DNA from: a virus
Direction: 5' to 3' (one strand)
Virus record (IMG/VR): IMGVR_UViG_3300027848_000054
Coordinates: 1 to 36,960 of that record
DNA: 36,960 nucleotides
Position 1 is the first letter of the stretch. Every line of letters begins with the position of its first letter. The notes below the pieces were generated by a model. It was not told the origin of the DNA. It saw nothing but the letters and a program-made list of their open reading frames with translations, and searched no databases. Positions 11,018 to 36,960 of this stretch are shown here, piece by piece. A program made the translations under genes and the position numbers.

Positions 11018-11337
11018 AGTTCGGGCGGCGGCAAGCATGGCTGTCAACTAAAGTTAATGGGGGCAATAGCTCAAACCGGGCGTCTCTGTCACAGGTGGAG
11101 AAAACAAAAAAGCTTCCCCCCGGCACACTCTTGGAGATTCCCGAGTTGGACCCCCACATTGAATATCTTTGGGGGTATTTCTTGGAGGTTTATTCCGGTG
11201 CGGAATTAACTTTCCAAGAGGTCGCCGCATGGTCTAGCCTCACGGGCAAGACGCTCAACCCTGACGAAGTAAAAACGCTTCGTCTTTTGGCTGTTGAAAT
11301 TTTAGACGAGAAGAATAAAAACTCACGGAATGACTGA
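10601..11337 (+). CDS. Tail assembly chaperone, frameshifted long form (GT)
   Basis: A -1 shift at TTTTTTC (10987-10993) joins the first 131 residues of G to 114 residues of the next frame, giving about 245 residues. The -1 frame is open from 10954 to the TGA at 11335. After the slip it reads QEAVAQLVKFGRRQAWLSTK and continues through LPPGTLLEIPELDPHIEYLW. The T part has no good independent start: its only candidate is a GTG at 11095, well inside the open frame. The lambda gpGT fusion recruits tail-tube subunits to the tape measure. The T end overlaps the tape-measure start at 11330 by eight bases. Confidence 0.82.
10987..10993 (+). promoter_or_regulatory. Programmed -1 ribosomal frameshift site, T TTT TTC
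   Basis: In the G frame the codons are AAT TTT TTC, which gives the canonical slippery order X XXY YYZ. It is followed by 21 further bases of G coding and the stop at 11015. I did not identify a definite stimulatory hairpin. Confidence 0.82.
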
Positions 11338-13885
11338 TGTTTCAAAACTAGTTCTAAAGGTTGATTCCCGCCAAGTTCGCCGGGCGCGGGGAGACTTGGG
11401 CGGGTTGAGTAAGACCGGCACGGTCGCTCAAAAATCAATTGGTGGGGTTACTAAGTCCGCGATCAAAGCAGGGGTGGCGATGCTTGGTTTTGCTACAGCG
11501 GCGGCGGCGGCATTCAAGGGGGTTTCAGCTTTTATCAAAGTCAACGCGGGCTTTGAACAGTCGCTTGCAAATGTAAAAGCAGTCACCCGGGCAACGGGTG
11601 AGGAAATGCAAGACCTCGAAAACACGGCCCGAAAGCTTGGCGCGTCAACGATTTTTTCAGCTAGTCAAGCGGCTGATGGAATGAAATTTCTAGGTATGGC
11701 TGGTTTCAGTACCAACCAAATCATTCAAGCGATGCCGGGACTGTTGGACCTTGCAGCGGCTTCGGGAATGGGGTTGGCGGAAACGGCGGACATTGCTTCA
11801 AACATTCTGACCGGCTTTAATATGCGGGCCAGCGAATCCGGGCGGGTTGCCGATGTGCTGGCGGCGGCGGCTTCCTCATCCAATACAAGCGTTCAGCAGT
11901 TGGGCGAGGCAATGAAATTTGCCGCCCCGGTTGCGGCTTCTTTGGGATTGGACATTGAGGACGCAGCGGCGGCAATCGGTGTCTTGTCCAACGCGGGTAT
12001 TCAGGGGAGCATGGCGGGAACTGCTTTGCGCTTGATGCTGGCAAAACTGGTTGACCCTTCAGACAAAGCAAAAGCGGCTTTGAAAAAATACCGGATTGAA
12101 ATTGAAGAGGTAAATCCAGCCACCAACAAATTCACCGACATTCTTGGGACCTTGGCGGAAGCCGGGGTAGGCGTTGCGGATATGTTCAAAATCTTCGAGA
12201 TTCGAGGTGCGGCGTCTGGTCTTGCCCTGGCAGGTAACGCGGACATGGTGGAAAAACTTGGCAATGCATTCAGGGACGCCAAAGGGCGGGCGGCTGAAAT
12301 GGCCGCAGTGATGAATGACACCTTGATTGGGGATGTTAAAATTTTTGGAAGTGCTGCCCAAGAACTTGCCCTTTCGCTAAATGACGAAACCGGGGTGACC
12401 GAATCGCTCCGTGAGGCCACCCAAGCGGCGACGGAATTTGTTAAGTCTATAGATGCGGAAGTAATATCCGCCCAACTTGACGCAATCCTTTTTAAGTTTT
12501 CCGCTCTCACCACCGGCTTTGATAATGCGCTCGCAAACATAGAGCACTCTTGGGAGCTGACGATGGGCTTTATGACCACCACCGGCGAAGTGGGGGCTAA
12601 TAGTATTACCAACGCATTTTTGGACATGCCCGAAAATATCCGTGCACTAGTTCAACTGACCGGGGCTGAAATTGGTTTTTTGGTCGAATTTGGCAGGGCG
12701 GCGGGCAAGGGAATTGTCACTGTAATTTCCGCCGAACTTTTGAGGCTCGTTGCAAAGGCTAAAGTTTTTGGTGAGAAAATCGGGGACTTCCTCAACCCAT
12801 TTAGCACGGGTAATTTTGACTTAAACGCTGAACTCGCTGCTGTCGATGCGTTTTACACGGAAATCCAAGTCACGGCTTTTGACCTATCAGCGGCGCAAAT
12901 CGCGGCGGCTGGAGAAGCCCGAATTTCCGTAATAACTGACATCCTTGACGAGCGTGACGTTGCGCTTGCATCTTATGCGGAACGGATAGCGGCGGCAAAA
13001 GCTTTGCGGGCCGCAAACAGGGCAGCGCGTGACTTACCCCCAGAAGATGGTGGAGAGGAGGACGGCCCGACTGGAAAGCCAAAGACTACTGGCCTTGGTG
13101 GTATCCCCGAAACTGATACCGCCTTGGAACGTATCCGACTAGGTCTGAGAACAGAAGAGGAAGCCGTCCAAGAATCCTATGACAATCGGAAGGCAATCAT
13201 TGAAGCCTCAACTACTGACACCGGGGACTTGATGGCGCGTCTGAACGCCGAGCGGGATGACCAAGAGAAGGCAGCGAACATAGCGAAATGGGAAGGGGCC
13301 CTGTCCGAGTTTGGTGATTTTCAAAACAACATGTTGATAATTTCCAAGACTGGAAACACAGCACTTGGCAAGGTTTTTAAGGCGGCGGCAATAGCACGGG
13401 CAGTCATAACTATGCACGAAGGTGCGACAAAATCTTATACAGCAATGGCCGACATCCCCGTTGTTGGGCCAGCTTTGGCATTTGCAGCCAAGGCGTCGGC
13501 AATCGTGGCAGGTCTTGCCAGCATCCAAGCGATCTCGGCGCAACCAATTGGTGGATTTGCGCAAGGTGGCATCATCCCGGGGAGCAGCCCAACCGGGGAC
13601 AACTTGACCGCAAACGTCAATTCCGGGGAAATGATTTTGAACATGTCCCAGCAGAGACAACTTTTTGAGCAATCAAACGGACGGGGAAACGACGGTGGTG
13701 GTTCGGTTGTCAAAATTTTCAACCTGCCCGGCCAAGAAGCGGAAACGCGGAAAGATGACTCTGGAAACATTGAGGTCTTTATCAAGCGGGCTGTCCAAGC
13801 GGTGGCAAGTGGTCTGGCAAGTGGGGATGGCCCCGTTGACCGTGCTCTGTCACCGGCTCTTGCACGGCGGGGGGTATTGCGATAA
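11330..13885 (+). CDS. Tail tape measure protein
   Basis: 851 residues. It sets tail length; at about 0.15 nm per residue this predicts a tail near 125 nm. The N-terminal segment starts DVSKLVLKVDSRQVRRARGD and is followed by an Ala-rich hydrophobic stretch (about residues 43-70). The TP901-type tape-measure core then begins: GFEQSLANVKAVTRATGEEM, ASTIFSASQAADGMKFLGMA and LSNAGIQGSMAGTALRLMLA. More hydrophobic segments, long helices and a C-terminal region with FAQGGIIPGSSPTGDNLTAN follow; this Gly-rich motif is common near tape-measure ends. The ATG at 11330 overlaps the GT stop. Confidence 0.93.
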   Translation: MTDVSKLVLKVDSRQVRRARGDLGGLSKTGTVAQKSIGGVTKSAIKAGVAMLGFATAAAAAFKGVSAFIKVNAGFEQSLANVKAVTRATGEEMQDLENTARKLGASTIFSASQAADGMKFLGMAGFSTNQIIQAMPGLLDLAAASGMGLAETADIASNILTGFNMRASESGRVADVLAAAASSSNTSVQQLGEAMKFAAPVAASLGLDIEDAAAAIGVLSNAGIQGSMAGTALRLMLAKLVDPSDKAKAALKKYRIEIEEVNPATNKFTDILGTLAEAGVGVADMFKIFEIRGAASGLALAGNADMVEKLGNAFRDAKGRAAEMAAVMNDTLIGDVKIFGSAAQELALSLNDETGVTESLREATQAATEFVKSIDAEVISAQLDAILFKFSALTTGFDNALANIEHSWELTMGFMTTTGEVGANSITNAFLDMPENIRALVQLTGAEIGFLVEFGRAAGKGIVTVISAELLRLVAKAKVFGEKIGDFLNPFSTGNFDLNAELAAVDAFYTEIQVTAFDLSAAQIAAAGEARISVITDILDERDVALASYAERIAAAKALRAANRAARDLPPEDGGEEDGPTGKPKTTGLGGIPETDTALERIRLGLRTEEEAVQESYDNRKAIIEASTTDTGDLMARLNAERDDQEKAANIAKWEGALSEFGDFQNNMLIISKTGNTALGKVFKAAAIARAVITMHEGATKSYTAMADIPVVGPALAFAAKASAIVAGLASIQAISAQPIGGFAQGGIIPGSSPTGDNLTANVNSGEMILNMSQQRQLFEQSNGRGNDGGGSVVKIFNLPGQEAETRKDDSGNIEVFIKRAVQAVASGLASGDGPVDRALSPALARRGVLR

Positions 13886-30736: not shown

Positions 30737-33406
30737 TCATTTGTCCCCCTCATTTTCGAACATCTTGTCAGCTTCGCTTGCCGCGTAACTGGCGAGGAGT
30801 TTGGCGGCGATCTTTGCGAGGTCTAACCCGTCGAGGCCGCTCTCGACGTGTGCCCATAGCACATGGCGTTGCCCGTCAATGCTGACCCGATCCGCCCGGT
30901 TGTAACCAAGGGAGCGGAGCACAGCGGTCAGTTGTTGGGGGGTGCTTTTGGTGAGCCCCTCTTGAGCTAAAAGCGATTGGAGCACACCCACCGAAATCAA
31001 GTCTTCAGAGACCAATGGATGATCTTTGGATGCCAACAGGGCTTCGATGGTATAGTTCAATTCCGGCGCGGTGTCTTCCGTCATTTCCCCGAGGTATTTT
31101 GTCACGGGGGCCGGACCGTCAACCGGGAAGTCAGCGGAAATTTCATAGTCCTCAAACCATGATCGAAGCCCGCCTGCGTGGGTTTTGAGCATCCCAAAGA
31201 TTTTATCAAAGTGCCCCTTGTCCCGCAATTCCTGAAGCTGGCTTTTCCTCTGTAGTGGTGACTTCACTACAAAATATCTTCGTTCGTCTTCCTCAATCGC
31301 GATGGCGTCGTGAAAATTCGTGAACATCATATAGTTCACGAGGTTTTCAACTTCTCGGTGGTCACGGAATCGTTGTTGAATTGAAATCCAATCATCAGAA
31401 ACGGGCTCTTTAAGCTTATTCATTATGTCAAACCGGGAGTGCCCTTTTACGCGGATTTCGTTCAGGACGGTCAATTGTGTCCCATAGGCCCAATCAGTCC
31501 AATCTTTGAAGAGGGTGCCGGGGTCAACCCGCTTGACTTGTTCGCCACCAAGGACAGTCCGCATGACTGTTTCGATAAAGCCTTTGCCTGCCCCCTTTAC
31601 GCTCTGAATCAGGGGAGCCCAGCGGATTTTCTGGCCAGGGTTCTGGACAAGGAACGCCAAGAAATCCAAAAAGGTTTTGCGGTGCTCAGGCTCGGCAATT
31701 AGTAAGTCGATATGACCGGAAAAAATCTCTCCTGCTTCCTTGGCCAAAGTGGGGTCTGGTTCCGGGTGGGTCGCGTGATAGGTGTTTACGTAGAGCCTCC
31801 CCTGACTGGTCACGAATTGATCGTCAGGACAGCGCGGGTCATAAAGGTAATCATAAGCCGTCCGAACTTTGAGCAGGTTCAAAATGAAATCACGCGGGCG
31901 GACAACCGGCTTGGACGCGGCGGCGGGGCTGTTGGCTTGGCCGGATGCTTCAAGAGCTTCTTTCGATGGTAGGAGAAATCGGCTATATGCAGAGTCAAGA
32001 GGTTCAGGACCCAACGCGGCCCGGTTTGAGAATCGGTAAAACTCATTGATCTTTTCGACATAGCAAAGCCCCATGGCCCAAGGTGGGGCGGGGGTGTCTT
32101 TCTCCTTTTCGATTTTTCGAGTGGCCTCGATATTTGCTTTCTTCCGCTTCAGGTCTTTTTTCAGCGTTGGAAGGTTAGTCCGGTGCTCAAACTTTTCCTT
32201 GGCGTGGCGTAAAATCTCATAGAGTAGCCCCTCCTCTTCTGACGCGGACAACAGGGGCGTTGTGATGATCCGGTCTAGGGCGTCACTCAGCAACCCGGTT
32301 AACGTGGTGGTCGCTCGGATAAACTCCCGGGTTGAGTTGTAACCACGTTGCTTTGCTTCCGCATTGTTCCAACCTGATTCAGTTGCTCGGCGGAAGAGGG
32401 AACGGATCGTCACCGGAACCCGGCCAACCGGCGAAGGCCGGAATGAATCCCATTTGGCTTGGGTGTCCTCCTGCCCTTTGTATTTCTCGCCCTCAGCGCT
32501 CCAAGTGTCAAAGAGTTCAAGCGCGGCGTCTGATTCTTTGCCCCTTGGGAATTGGTGCTTCAGTCCGGCCGCAATTTCCAACCACGCGCGATACTCTATA
32601 TCAGCATCGATGTGTAAGAGGGCATCCTTGCAGTCATCTAATGTCACCCCCTCAACCGGCGGGCGTAGGAACTCCAGAGCGTCCCCGCTTGTGTCCTCAT
32701 TGGAAGTGCGGGCGGCAGTGGTCTTCCCGGCTGTTGGGGTGGTGTTGTCAGCCCCGGCAAAGTCTTCAGCGGTCAAGGGCGAGGCGTCAGCCCGCCAAGC
32801 GATCAAAGGATGCTCTTTTTCGTGGTTGGTGTCCGAAAACGAGGTTGGCCGGAACATGGCTTGAACCACCACGCCGCTTTCTGAGGTGACAAATGGAAGC
32901 CCGATCAGCTTGGCCACATGAGACACGGCTTGCCGGTAGAGTTCCGGGGCGAACCCTGACCCCTCCACCATGACGCGGATGCGGGGTGCCCCCGGCTGAC
33001 TTTGGGCGGTGTGATACACGGCGTAATTCAGACCGTCCAATTGGCGGGCCAAGATTTGCGGGTCTTTTATGTAAGGTGCGGCGGGGTAACTGATCTCCTT
33101 GCCGGACTTATCCTTTTCCGGGTCAATGTCCAAAAAGATCAAAGAGACGCCCTGAGCGTTCGCGGTGAGGCGCTTTGATGGGGACTCACGAAAGGATGCG
33201 GGGACAAGATAGGGGACACGTTTTGCAAGGTCTCTTGGGCTGTTAGCGTGGCCGCCCTCAAGGGCGAAAAACTGGGTGCGGGTCAGGTTGAGTTGGACGG
33301 GCGCGTTGAGGTATTGCTCAACTAACCCTTGGAAATCGCGGGGTGGAAGTTCGCGGACAAGCCCCAAATTGGAAGCTTCCCCGCCAAAGAATTTTTGGTT
33401 TCGCAT
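30737..33406 (-). CDS. Primase-helicase (AEP-like N-domain, PriCT-2, DUF5906 SF3 helicase)
   Basis: 889 residues. The N-terminal region has IFLDIDPEKD (about 110-120) and a later SQPGAPRIRVMVEG, consistent with a divergent archaeo-eukaryotic primase fold. A PriCT-2-like segment follows (DALLHIDADIEYRAWLEIAA, then YKGQEDTQAKWDSF). The C-terminal half is a DUF5906-type SF3 helicase: Walker A QSVKGAGKGFIE, then LTVLNEIR as Walker B, WISIQQRFRDHRE and MMFTNFHDAIAI. It would prime and unwind at the origin. The gene starts 11 bases after the HNH gene, close to the palindromic region. Confidence 0.88.
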   Translation of the reverse strand: MRNQKFFGGEASNLGLVRELPPRDFQGLVEQYLNAPVQLNLTRTQFFALEGGHANSPRDLAKRVPYLVPASFRESPSKRLTANAQGVSLIFLDIDPEKDKSGKEISYPAAPYIKDPQILARQLDGLNYAVYHTAQSQPGAPRIRVMVEGSGFAPELYRQAVSHVAKLIGLPFVTSESGVVVQAMFRPTSFSDTNHEKEHPLIAWRADASPLTAEDFAGADNTTPTAGKTTAARTSNEDTSGDALEFLRPPVEGVTLDDCKDALLHIDADIEYRAWLEIAAGLKHQFPRGKESDAALELFDTWSAEGEKYKGQEDTQAKWDSFRPSPVGRVPVTIRSLFRRATESGWNNAEAKQRGYNSTREFIRATTTLTGLLSDALDRIITTPLLSASEEEGLLYEILRHAKEKFEHRTNLPTLKKDLKRKKANIEATRKIEKEKDTPAPPWAMGLCYVEKINEFYRFSNRAALGPEPLDSAYSRFLLPSKEALEASGQANSPAAASKPVVRPRDFILNLLKVRTAYDYLYDPRCPDDQFVTSQGRLYVNTYHATHPEPDPTLAKEAGEIFSGHIDLLIAEPEHRKTFLDFLAFLVQNPGQKIRWAPLIQSVKGAGKGFIETVMRTVLGGEQVKRVDPGTLFKDWTDWAYGTQLTVLNEIRVKGHSRFDIMNKLKEPVSDDWISIQQRFRDHREVENLVNYMMFTNFHDAIAIEEDERRYFVVKSPLQRKSQLQELRDKGHFDKIFGMLKTHAGGLRSWFEDYEISADFPVDGPAPVTKYLGEMTEDTAPELNYTIEALLASKDHPLVSEDLISVGVLQSLLAQEGLTKSTPQQLTAVLRSLGYNRADRVSIDGQRHVLWAHVESGLDGLDLAKIAAKLLASYAASEADKMFENEGDK

Positions 33407-33417
33407 GGTGGGTGGGT

Positions 33418-33771
33418 TCAGCGGGGTAGAGTGTGGGACACCTCAACGAGGTTGGACGGGAGGTTGTTCAGCTTGTTGCCATCGCGGTGGATTATCTTAT
33501 GATCCGGCAACGGGTGCCGCCCCTTAGTGATCGTGAAGACAATGTCCTCAGCATGGATTAGTATCCCTTTAAAGGAGACTTTAACCCCATTCAGGTACAT
33601 CCCCCTTTTATGGTAGGTTGGGCAACCGGCCAACTGTCCTCGGGTCCGCCTGCTCGCCTTTGGTGGGTTGTCCCAAGTCAACCGCCCAACTTGGTTGACG
33701 CTGAATGTTTCTTGCAGCACAGCAACCGGGAAGGCTGTTACCCTGCAAAGTTTACGGGTTTTTTGTCTCAT
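33418..33771 (-). CDS. HNH endonuclease
   Basis: 117 residues. The C-terminal GRHPLPDHKIIHRDGNKLNN followed by LPSNLVEVSH is the HNH core (H-x-I-x-H-x-D-G-x-x-x-N-N, then N-L) of phage homing-type HNH enzymes. The N-terminal half contains QVGRLTWDNPPKASRRTRGQ. It is the first gene of the leftward replication operon, with TTGACA/AAATTC ahead of it. It might be a selfish stand-alone homing endonuclease or serve DNA processing beside the origin-like region. Confidence 0.82.
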   Translation of the reverse strand: MRQKTRKLCRVTAFPVAVLQETFSVNQVGRLTWDNPPKASRRTRGQLAGCPTYHKRGMYLNGVKVSFKGILIHAEDIVFTITKGRHPLPDHKIIHRDGNKLNNLPSNLVEVSHTLPR

Positions 33772-33779
33772 GGAATTCG

Positions 33780-33808
33780 GAATTTGGTGGCTTGATGGTT
33801 TGTGTCAA
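33780..33808 (-). promoter_or_regulatory. Putative leftward promoter, TTGACA-17-AAATTC
   Basis: TTGACA (33808-33803) and AAATTC (33785-33780), eight bases before the ATG at 33771. The -10 is weak and lacks the GTTTT core, but the geometry matches other copies. It would drive the replication operon. Confidence 0.4.
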
Positions 33809-33881
33809 TAATTATCTACACATATTTTATTTCCCCGAAAAAATGGAAATAAACGTTTACAAAAACCCGATTGGGTGAATC

Positions 33882-34160
33882 CCTGCCTGACCCCTGCCTG
33901 ATTAAATTTAATCGGGTTATTGTAAGTTGTTGACCCGACAGATTTTTACATAAGCAAACCTGATTACCTGATAACATCCCATTAACGCGTGTGAGGAGGA
34001 AGTGGGTAAAGGGTAGAGTTTAGCAGTGGGTGGATGCGCGCGCAGCCCCCAGACAGGGGTTGGGATGTCTTCAGGTAATCAGGCAGCAGAATGGAAGTAT
34101 GTTGAACACTAGGGGTTTACAACAACCTGATTAAATTTAATCAGGCAGGGGTCAGGCAGG
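33882..34160. repeat. 279-bp symmetric palindromic region of CCTGATTA elements; candidate origin
   Basis: Outer arms 33882-33923 and 34119-34160 are inverted copies (40 of 42 bases). Inner arms 33959-33981 and 34061-34083 are inverted copies (21 of 23). Both pairs centre on 34021. Each outer arm contains a 20-bp palindrome; the right one is perfect (CCTGATTAAATTTAATCAGG, 34126-34145) and the left has one mismatch. CCTGAT(T/A)A elements thus occur about nine times in both orientations. The centre includes ggatgcgcgcgcagccccc. This suggests dimeric initiator or repressor binding; an origin of replication is the likeliest role. Confidence 0.85.
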
Positions 34161-34293
34161 CACCAGGTTTATCAGGTTAACCGGGTTTGCTACCTTTTGA
34201 CTTGGGGAACCAGCTTGGCGTCTGGTTTAACCCGCAACAATGGCAAACCGATTCGACTTGCAATAGGGGGCCAAAAGTGTGTCCTTTTGTCTC

Positions 34294-34836
34294 ATGGCAC
34301 TTTCAGCCCAACAAATAAAGTATTGTCAGCTAAGAGCAGGCGGCGACATTTCGCGGCAAGCGGCCTATGGTCAGTGCTACCCAAAAGCCAACCATAATTC
34401 CGCCGGGACTAAAGGCTCGGTGATGGAACTAAAGCCCAAAATCATTGCCGAAATCAAACGGCTACAGGCGGACAGTGAAACAACGACCACGCTGACCCGC
34501 CAAGAGAAGCGGGAATTTTTGGCAAGAGTTGTCCGGATGGACATTAGCACCTTGGAAAAGGGCGGCTCGGATAATCGAGACTTGCTTGACTCAATTGTCC
34601 GCAGTTTTGACAAAAGAAGCAACGAGATAAAAACGACTTATAAGATGCCGGGCAAGGCGCAGTGCATCGAGATTGATAACAAGATGGCCGGTCACAACGA
34701 ACCGGAGGAGCATAAGCACACAATTGAGACCGGCGTGATGGTGATTAAAGACATTGGGGCAACTCTCAATGATTGGGAAAAACAAGCGGCCCAACAGCAA
34801 ATGAGGCTGAAAGAGGAAGCCCAAGAAAAGGATTGA
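34294..34836 (+). CDS. Terminase small subunit
   Basis: 180 residues from the ATG at 34294; a GTG at 34279 is less likely. The N-terminus ALSAQQIKYCQLRAGGDISR followed by QAAYGQCYP is the helix-turn-helix of small terminases (A-Q-x-A-Y-x-x-G-Y type). Helices and a central coiled region follow (LTRQEKREFLARVVRMDIST). It recognises the packaging site and forms a ring that feeds the large subunit. The binding site could lie in the adjacent repeat region. Confidence 0.78.
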   Translation: MALSAQQIKYCQLRAGGDISRQAAYGQCYPKANHNSAGTKGSVMELKPKIIAEIKRLQADSETTTTLTRQEKREFLARVVRMDISTLEKGGSDNRDLLDSIVRSFDKRSNEIKTTYKMPGKAQCIEIDNKMAGHNEPEEHKHTIETGVMVIKDIGATLNDWEKQAAQQQMRLKEEAQEKD

Positions 34837-34868: not shown

Positions 34869-35090
34869 ATGAAGCTTTTCATTTTTTGGCTATTGTTTGC
34901 GCTGGTGTCCGTGGTTCTCAGCCCGCTCCTAGTTGTTGGGGCGCTGGCGGCTTACCTGCAATGGCAGGCTTACAAACTGGCATTCCCGGTGCACTATCAG
35001 CCGGGTGCAGTTAAGAGGAGCGTGGACAGGTTCGCGGGTAGAGTCTCCGGCGGATATGCCAACAGCCCAAGAAATCACGGGCAAAACTGA
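34869..35090 (+). CDS. Small membrane protein between the terminase genes
   Basis: 73 residues from the ATG at 34869. An N-terminal hydrophobic stretch (KLFIFWLLFALVSVVLSPLL, then VVGALAAYLQW) spans about residues 2-33, followed by a basic soluble tail. The stop overlaps the large terminase start (TGATG). Unusual in this place; perhaps a lysis or exclusion protein, but no family recognised. Confidence 0.7.
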   Translation: MKLFIFWLLFALVSVVLSPLLVVGALAAYLQWQAYKLAFPVHYQPGAVKRSVDRFAGRVSGGYANSPRNHGQN

Positions 35091-36960
35091 TGGGTCAAAA
35101 GCTCGTTTGGACTCCCTTGCCCGGTTCGCAGGAATTGGCAATGACCGCTCCGGTCTCCCACATTCTGCACGAAGGAAGCCGGGGGCCGGGTAAGACTGAT
35201 GGCCAATTGATGCGGTTCCGCAAAACCGTTGGTCAAGGATACGGCGCGTTTTGGCGCGGGATTATCTTTGACAAAAGATACAAGAATTTGGACGACATAG
35301 TTGCTAAGTCCAAGCGGTGGTTCCCCCAAATTGGGCAGGGCGCGAAGTGGTTGTCCTCAAAATCAGATTACAAATGGGTTTGGCCAACTGGTGAGGAATT
35401 GCTTTTCCGTCACATGGAAAAAGAAAGTGATTATGACCAATATCACGGCCACGAATATCCATATATTGCTTTTAACGAGCTGACTAAATGGCCCACGTCC
35501 GCTTGTTATGACAAGATGATGTCCTGCAACCGTTCGCCCTTTGTCCCGTCGGAACACTCGCCGGATCTTAAAAACCCTCTGCCGGAAATCCCGTTGACGG
35601 TGTATTCAACGACCAATCCGCACGGGGTGGGACATAATTGGGTCAAGCGGCGGTTCATCGACCCCGCCCCGGCTGGCCAAGTGGTCCGGAAAACGACGCG
35701 GGTTTTCAATCCACGGACCCAAAAAGAGCAGGACATTGTCAAAACCCAAGTCCGCCTTTTCGGGTCGTATCGGGAAAACAAATACCTTCCCCCTGAATAC
35801 ATTGCGGACTTGATGGGGATTTCCGACCCCAATTTACGGGCCGCGTGGCTCGAAGGGAATTGGGACATTACCGCCGGAGGCGCCTTAGATGATCTATGGA
35901 AGCAGGACGTGCATGTCTTGCCCCGGTTCGTGGTGCCCAAGAATTGGCGGGTCACAAGGTCATTCGACTGGGGCTCAACCCACCCTTTTAGCGTTGGATT
36001 CTGGGCAATCGCCAACGGCGAGGAAGTCGAATTTGAAGACGGTAAAACCCGGACGTTTGTGAGAGGCTCACGAATCCGCATTGACGAAATCTACGGTGCC
36101 AGAATCCTTGCCGGTGAGCAGTTCGGACACAACCAAGGGCGCAAACTGAGCGCGCGGAAAGTTGCCCTTGAAATCAAAGAGAGGGAGTCAGATTTGAAAT
36201 TGATGGGGTATATCCAGACCACCCCAGAACCGGGACCGGCGGACAATCAAATTTCCAACGTCAACGAAGACGAAACCGCGTCTATTGCATCAATAATGGC
36301 CAAGGAGGGCATCACTTGGACCAAGTCGGACAAGTCAGCGGGCTCCCGGAAGATGGGCTTGGAGTTAGTCCGCAACGCCCTCGAGGCCTCGCTGGACGGG
36401 GAAGGTCCGGGGCTTTATGTCACAAAAAACTGCAAAGCATTTATCGAGACTGTGCCAACCCTCCCACGGGATGAGGATAACCCCGAGGATGTTGCGACCG
36501 AATCCGAAGATCACTGCTTTGTTGCCGGGACGATGGTCAAAACCCCAAATGGTGACACACCAATAGAGCAATTATCAGAGGGGGATTTGGTCTTGACGCG
36601 GCAAGGATTCAAGTTCATTACCGAAACCCACAAGACAAAACCAGTCCCGGTGTTCGGAGTGGAAACCGGATCCGGTCGCCTAGTCGGGACAGGGAACCAC
36701 CCGGTTTATGTTGCGGGGCGCGGCTGGAAAAGGGTTGACCTTTTGGTGAAAGGTGACTCGCTGATGACAGCTGCGAGCAATCCAACTTGCGTCATAGACG
36801 TAAAACCAGCGGGGTTTGAAGCCGTTTATAATATCACGGTTTCGGACTGCCACGAATACTACGCAAATGGTTTCTTAGTCCACAATTGTTATGACGAAAC
36901 TAGGTATCTGATATTAGACGCCAAGCCGGTCTTTGCAAATTCCGTGAAGGTCAAATTTGC
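35090..36960 (+). CDS. Terminase large subunit with intein (runs off the window)
   Basis: 623 residues visible. The ATG at 35090 overlaps the previous stop; the protein begins MGQKLVWTPLPGSQELAMTA. Walker A is GSRGPGKT (29-36). YPYIAFNELTKW is the Walker B-like segment with Glu130, where the usual Asp-Glu is Asn-Glu. FDWGSTHPF starts the RNase H-like nuclease. The mini-intein interrupts ESEDH-CYDETRY, beside the third acidic residue of the nuclease. After the intein, 24 C-extein residues remain before the edge. This ATPase-nuclease cuts and packs DNA. Confidence 0.93.
   Translation, partial: MGQKLVWTPLPGSQELAMTAPVSHILHEGSRGPGKTDGQLMRFRKTVGQGYGAFWRGIIFDKRYKNLDDIVAKSKRWFPQIGQGAKWLSSKSDYKWVWPTGEELLFRHMEKESDYDQYHGHEYPYIAFNELTKWPTSACYDKMMSCNRSPFVPSEHSPDLKNPLPEIPLTVYSTTNPHGVGHNWVKRRFIDPAPAGQVVRKTTRVFNPRTQKEQDIVKTQVRLFGSYRENKYLPPEYIADLMGISDPNLRAAWLEGNWDITAGGALDDLWKQDVHVLPRFVVPKNWRVTRSFDWGSTHPFSVGFWAIANGEEVEFEDGKTRTFVRGSRIRIDEIYGARILAGEQFGHNQGRKLSARKVALEIKERESDLKLMGYIQTTPEPGPADNQISNVNEDETASIASIMAKEGITWTKSDKSAGSRKMGLELVRNALEASLDGEGPGLYVTKNCKAFIETVPTLPRDEDNPEDVATESEDHCFVAGTMVKTPNGDTPIEQLSEGDLVLTRQGFKFITETHKTKPVPVFGVETGSGRLVGTGNHPVYVAGRGWKRVDLLVKGDSLMTAASNPTCVIDVKPAGFEAVYNITVSDCHEYYANGFLVHNCYDETRYLILDAKPVFANSVKVKF
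36515..36886 (+). other. Mini-intein in the large terminase (124 residues)
   Basis: Block A is CFVAGTMVKTPNGDTPIEQL (Cys1). Block B includes GTGNHPVYV (x-x-N-H-P). Block F/G is VYNITVSDCHEYYANGFLVH followed by Asn and +1 Cys, with the normal His-Asn-Cys end. It has no endonuclease domain. All splicing blocks are intact, so splicing should rebuild the nuclease motif DHCYDETRY. Confidence 0.92.

Follow-up and report, generated by a model that had tools for sequence, protein, structure and literature searches.

The intergenic region and its array

The window is the whole stretch of DNA that was analysed, the IMG/VR virus record IMGVR_UViG_3300027848_000054 of 36,960 bp, which is classed as linear without end repeats. 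Two divergent sets of genes are separated within it by a noncoding stretch (Table 1). The leftward operon encodes an HNH_3 protein, a primase-helicase, a DUF2800 exonuclease, an Enc34-type SSB, a PolA-like polymerase and an SNF2-like helicase, and the rightward genes are TerS and then TerL. A distance of 118 bp separates the right outer arm of the array from the start of TerS. A preliminary description of this DNA had placed the array between replication and packaging genes, and the gene layout bears this out.

Table 1. Positions of the array elements and the adjoining genes in the window.
Feature	Position	Strand	Basis or content
Primase-helicase, 889 aa, putative origin-binding initiator	30737-33406	-	PriCT_2 and DUF5906, winged-helix-like C terminus (model)
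HNH_3 protein, first leftward gene	33418-33771	-	Domain match
Noncoding stretch holding the whole array	33772-34278 (507 bp)	.	ORF layout and families
Outer left arm, with palindrome-like site 33897-33916 inside	33882-33925	.	Pairing
Inner left arm	33959-33981	.	Tandem 8-bp words CCTGATTA (33959) and CCTGATAA (33967)
Core, 79 bp	33982-34060	.	GC 0.59, purine-rich on + strand, asymmetric
Inner right arm, with CAGGTAATCAGG	34061-34083	.	Pairing and word positions
Outer right arm	34117-34160	.	Perfect 20-bp palindrome at 34126-34145
Extra word copy TTATCAGG, beyond right arm	34169-34176	-	Word scan
Small terminase TerS, first rightward gene	34279-34836	+	Family; relatives

The array consists of two nested pairs of inverted arms that share a centre at 34021. 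The outer arms are paired at 42 of 44 positions (40 of 42 for 33882-33923 alone) and the inner arms at 21 of 23. These pairs and their common centre had been reported in the preliminary description and are recovered by the pairing of the arms, as is the perfect 20-bp palindrome that it had placed in one arm. The palindrome has the sequence CCTGATTAAATTTAATCAGG, its left counterpart is one base off, and the centres of these outer palindromes lie 229 bp apart. When 73,320 centres in the window are ranked by symmetry 34021 comes first, with 81 of 139 positions matching; the next centre has 60, and the mean is 34.7 with a standard deviation of 5.4. The inverted repeat scores 36, whereas the 507-bp region, shuffled 20 times with its dinucleotides preserved, never gave a score above 10. 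The word CCTGATTA/TAATCAGG has five copies in the 36,960 bp (both strands), every one of them inside the array. Symmetry is confined to the arms; the linkers and core give 18 symmetric matches of 72, which is the chance level. The mirror-image array is thereby confirmed as a real feature of the window.

The core is not AT-rich, whereas the left flank (33772-33881) is (0.35). AT-rich melting within the core was considered, and is unsupported at its GC content of 0.59. At an E-value limit of 1, Rfam gives no match for 33400-34400.

Neither a 'phages' DNA search with the 1-kb region of the window nor tblastn with TerS gave a match. Alignment of TerS against genome_contigs gave 91 candidate stretches, and since none was confirmed, that set yielded no prophage copy. 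Three viral contigs contain the exact palindrome pattern. A scan with a 14-base word gave, among the matches listed, only chance-like ones except in the contigs of the relative G1; contig L206, also among the matches listed, has three words within 400 bp.

Layout and words in relatives

Relatives were collected by scans with the primase, TerS and TerL of the window. Ten distinct relatives (G1, G2, G3, G4, L010, L012, L245, L247, L257 and L258) share the divergent primase-gap-terminase layout, the terminase side resting on TerL (36-43% identity) in L245, L257 and L258, and, in L245 and L258, visual inspection alone placing TerS between TerL and the gap. An inverted array is present in the gap in nine of the ten, with L010 ambiguous. 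The preliminary description had named a lack of conserved symmetry in relatives as the result that would tell against it, and these nine arrays are what was found instead.

The words are diverse. The window and G1 have the CCTGATTA-type word, to which a single copy in L012 is related, and G1 is the sole relative that uses it throughout. G2 and G3 have GACA repeats, L012 has GGCCAAG, L257 and L258 have GGACTT, L247 has CCAGCAAA and G4 has CTATTACC/CTATCACC, while L245 carries TGACCGTA in tandem, with a perfect 21-bp mirror and a 78-bp spacer. Same-strand words are spaced by 8 bp in the window, G1, L245, L247, L257, L258 and L267, additionally by 12 bp in G1 and L267, by 4 bp in G2 and G3, and by 7 to 13 bp in the remaining arrays; in L012 there is no such spacing within 14 bp. 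Judged from these sequences, the layout of the inverted array is kept across the relatives and the word is exchanged. Beyond its GACA arms, G3 has a further palindrome-like motif around TTCAAATTTGAAG (L009 4652-4665), and G2 has a site resembling it (L102 4884-4898).

The spacers between the inner sets of ten other arrays (eight from primase relatives and two from TerL relatives, with bounds set by hand) have GC contents of 0.17-0.35 in loci of 0.42-0.59, and against these AT-rich spacers the core of the window is the exception. Just inside one inner arm is a 14-mer, TAACGCGTGTGAGG (33983-33996), that is common to the window and G3, with a near copy in L247, and ACGCGT occurs in four of 11 regions. 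In the orientation of the window the best purine run exceeds the best pyrimidine run in nine of the 11 regions, with two ties. Since G1 has its purine run beyond the core, and the regions are related by descent, the purine bias and the shared 14-mer can do no more than hint at an element for asymmetric loading or priming.

TerS is 45-51% identical to that of the window in the six relatives measured, with same-word G1 among them. G4 has a TerL that is 73% identical to that of the window, a primase that is only 30% identical and a different word, so that these modules have become separated. In G3 the protein at the HNH position (L009 4253-4582, - strand; 23% identity to that of the window) has an HNH motif that looks degenerate, and may retain DNA binding alone.

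The primase-helicase

The primase-helicase of the window was modelled from 17 homologues, with a mean pLDDT of 82.2 and a pTM of 0.47. PriCT_2 (E 2.1e-14) follows the primase part, and we take the HBD of NrS-1 to be its counterpart. D93 and D95 are nearly invariant in the 17 homologues, and this acidic pair may be the AEP catalytic motif; Pfam Prim-Pol matches two of the 17, and does not match the protein of the window. The best solved match to the model is the C-terminal region of NrS-1 PrimPol, found with E 8.7e-18 in the structure search (6k9c: Z 26.8, rmsd 4.4, 377 residues) and with E 4e-25 by sequence over 518-720. The SaPI5 primase-helicase is also matched (7om0_D: Z 17.9, rmsd 5.1, 345 residues; 7ola: Z 18.0, rmsd 13.7), as is PriRep1 with dsDNA, aligned over 544 to 856 (Z 14.1, rmsd 4.9, 285 residues). 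Further down, the structure search lists animal-virus helicases, which are fold matches only. As modelled, therefore, the protein resembles NrS-1 PrimPol and the SaPI5 primase-helicase. Its C terminus is winged-helix-like in the model (H782-793, E803-805, H806-815, H823-832, E835-843, E846-853).

Among 45 pairs of proteins, C-terminal identity is greatest in those that share a word, the window with G1 (45%) and G2 with G3 (47%, with the C terminus of G2 incomplete in the contig used), and the next value is 39%. G3 and L247 have helicase parts that are 81% identical, C termini that are 39% identical, and different words. This fits a location of word specificity in the C terminus. However, the N-terminal identities likewise place the same two pairs first, and descent therefore also explains the match between C terminus and word.

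Arrays with and without the primase

Tiles of 400 bp were scored by their number of inverted 7-mer pairs in a sample of 25 primase-bearing phages (31 loci, with contigs of one phage merged). In 11 of the 25 (the window, G2, G4, L012, L245, L247, L257, L258, L264, L265 and L267) the top tile is an array that adjoins the primase or the HNH gene next to it, and in the three distant contigs L264, L265 and L267 this array lies 3' of the primase. The test is a weak one, since it ranks the arrays of G1 and G3 third and fourth in their pieces despite their plain arms, and the lead of the top tile in L257 and L267 is narrow. By this test there is no array near the primase in six of the 25 (L250, L251, L254, L255, L256 and L261). 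L010 is ambiguous, the top tile of L253 reads as a repeat within a frame, and in L259, L263 and L266 one side is cut by the contig end. L262 has dense AATCGGTAC words on both strands at 11101-11534, 3.2 kb from the primase and at the contig end.

Named phages were sampled at 19 loci, hand-picked from 367 records with the primase. The top tile lies less than 1 kb from the primase in eight (AhaSv, PSTCR9, PhAER-6, Chi, YMC15, AH2, Nazgul and SS2019XI), seven of which were inspected as sequence and PhAER-6 by tile only. It lies 1.5-2.4 kb from the primase in PCA1 and R16L (by tile score only) and inside a CDS in PVN06, and the tile test gave no array at the other eight (Carli, P106B, Milano, Susan, AAM22, Mulvp2, KpV52 and ctUhy936).

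Arrays also occur where no match to the primase of the window was detected. The 37 TerL-related loci of this kind include 12 with a tile of at least 35, and 11 of these 12 strong tiles sit 1.7-3.3 kb upstream of TerL. On inspection of six such loci, four are clear iteron arrays (L021 5101-5500, L023 1901-2300, L054 5401-5800 and L061 501-900), with AT-rich cores in L021, L023 and L054. The gene 5' of the array in L021 and L023 encodes an ATP-dependent DNA ligase. DUF5906 was not found in any of ten records of TerL relatives without a match to this primase, nor D5_N, VapE, Prim-Pol or DnaB_C in any of nine (L061 was checked for DUF5906 only), though these records may be fragments. The arrays are thus not tied to this primase family; the same layout may serve other initiators, or some of these arrays may signal packaging or regulation.

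A candidate replication origin

We propose that the array is an iteron replication origin fired by the PrimPol-helicase and working like the origins of PICI and SaPI elements, a reading to which we give a probability of about 60%. It is favored because the layout of the array is kept in nine of ten relatives with differing words, and because the adjoining cluster encodes a protein modelled like self-loading, origin-binding primase-helicases. It is weakened by the GC content of the core, by the six of 25 primase phages that show no array near the primase and by the arrays in TerL relatives. The primase-helicase of the phage itself would bind the 8-bp words (CCTGATTA), both tandem and palindromic and arranged as two inverted sets, and its C-terminal winged-helix-like domain is the most likely point of contact. 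A pair of helicase rings would then assemble face to face over the core of ~80 bp, open the duplex and depart in opposite directions, with the N-terminal primase part priming DNA synthesis on the exposed strands. We infer the binding, melting and priming by the primase-helicase at the array, and the bidirectional start from the symmetry only. The preliminary description had read the locus as either an origin or the target of a dimeric regulator; the first half is strengthened by the kept layout and by the fold of the primase-helicase, and the second is neither strengthened nor refuted.

The preliminary description had also put forward GC skew as a check, which we ran on the window, G1 and G2. 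The array of G2 is 399 bp from the cumulative GC minimum and 171 bp from the TA maximum of that genome, distances compatible with an origin. However, the opposite extremes of G2 (25.0-25.8 kb) fall near the convergence of transcription, and not opposite the array. The TA minimum of the window, at 26.3 kb, is also near transcription convergence, and the GC skew of the window and both skews of G1 scatter. Because the extremes coincide with divergence or convergence of transcription, or scatter, the skews are uninformative and cannot be used as evidence on an origin.

Operator, packaging site or another binder

An operator array, at which a phage regulator (an HNH-like protein, for example, or an unseen repressor) would bind half-sites and palindromes, loop the DNA and switch the divergent operons, is in our view unlikely. 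The array does lie between divergent operons in the window, and the region of the relatives is likewise between divergent units; the perfect palindrome and the 229-bp distance between the outer palindrome centres would also suit a regulator. Yet the sole promoter-like site in 33400-34400 is at 33476-33503, outside the array, and a single site is the shuffle level for this region, with a sigma-70-like consensus that may not be that of the host. By their frames, L264, L265 and L267 have the array following the primase gene and not between divergent operons, and an operator would not need the AT-rich spacers of ~80 bp found in relatives. Nor was a match to the HNH protein found in L245, L257 and L258, all three of which bear arrays, and on this ground the HNH protein is rejected as a universal binder.

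We consider it distinctly improbable that the array is a packaging site (cos or pac) recognized by TerS. TerS adjoins the array in the family of the window, and the strong tiles upstream of TerL in 11 of the 37 relatives without this primase would be well placed for such a site. The word, on the other hand, does not track TerS, whose identity is 45-51% in six relatives whatever the word, and the genes listed beside the array in L265 and Chi are not terminase genes. BcepNazgul bears on both sides of the question: its array and annotated cos are in one noncoding region, but the array tile stops ~200 bp before the annotated cos overhang, and that gap shows the two to be separable. A cos core of the Casjensviridae type, GCTC[TA]GCGC, is absent from the window, which is uninformative on other types of cos.

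It is very improbable that the array is an origin with another specific binder (TerS-like, HNH-like or a host factor) by which the primase-helicase is merely recruited, for although similar-looking arrays occur where DUF5906, D5_N, VapE and Prim-Pol were not detected, the primase-helicase of the window has a winged-helix-like C terminus in its model, and SaPI Rep and Cch2 are described in the available text of PMC7581432 as binding iterons themselves.

Relation to known systems

In the available text of two reports (PMC6092414, PMC7581432), two sets of short iterons flank a core in PICI and SaPI origins, with words that vary between elements and a primase-helicase nearby; the first of these places the origins 3' of the primase, the side on which the arrays of L264, L265 and L267 lie. 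The window is alike in having inverted word sets around a 79-bp core, and its primase-helicase matches that of SaPI5 by fold. It differs in its GC-rich core, in the position of the array 5' of the initiator operon with the HNH gene between, and in belonging to a phage that encodes a PolA-like polymerase and an SSB of its own rather than to a satellite. Since the AT-rich core and 3' position are defining for PICI and SaPI origins and are lacking here, we do not file the array among them.

The part of PMC7581432 available also describes how SaPI Rep recognizes its iteron origin through the C-terminal domain, and how Cch2 uses its C-terminal domain to bind repeats of a putative origin, in the intergenic region beside its own gene. 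SCCmec Cch2 is thus comparable as a D5-type helicase whose C-terminal domain binds repeats next to its gene, and differs, as far as that text goes, in having three 5-nt iterons in direct repeat.

According to the accessible portions of PMC7102993 and PMC8718748, NrS-1 Pol requires an 8-nt site in the template, and GTGG/GTGA works too. The site has two copies in the genome, one per strand, and was suggested as a possible origin (PMC7102993); the motif serves for priming on single-stranded DNA (PMC8718748). NrS-1 is like the window in providing the best structure and sequence match of the helicase part and in its 8-nt recognition site, and unlike it in that those portions describe two single sites, whereas the window has an array.

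The Casjensviridae (Chi, AH2 and BcepNazgul) have related replication genes and inverted word arrays beside the primase. In contrast to the window the array is 3' of the primase, that of BcepNazgul is near the annotated cos, the words are others, and tandem spacings are 7 to 13 bp in the five phages measured. Among the literature matches listed (titles and abstract openings, with few subscription journals), no such arrays are described for the Casjensviridae or for the family of the window. In phage P4, which has ori and crr, the alpha protein unites primase and helicase in one origin-binding protein.

To our knowledge, the origins of most tailed phages are unmapped. A similar layout in phages, including growable Chi-like isolates, would link phage and satellite origins, and if the origin reading is true the origins of such phages would be predictable from sequence. 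We tentatively raise a wider proposal, which we regard as doubtful: many tailed phages with a PrimPol-helicase might carry a modular origin of fixed inverted-iteron layout, with a swappable word matched by a variable C-terminal winged helix, the word acting as an origin-identity code whose diversity would keep rival phages from cross-replication and satellites that have such an origin too (PICI) from hijacking. The specificity of initiator for origin would become testable by exchanging words and C-terminal domains.

TerL and the genome ends

The TerL of the window (35090-36958) has an insertion of ~130 aa with Hint/intein matches (PF13403, PF07591). It begins at a Cys near residue 476, ends in ...VHN-C, is mini-intein-like, and is missing from the 498-aa TerL of G1. 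The gene leaves the contig end (36960) within a few residues of the last position of the TerL of G1. With the following gene starting at 105, the record may represent an almost complete genome with a circular map. The ends of G1 overlap by 117 bp and are bridged at 100% by contig L018; L101 bridges the ends of G2. Both therefore have circular maps of ~38 kb.
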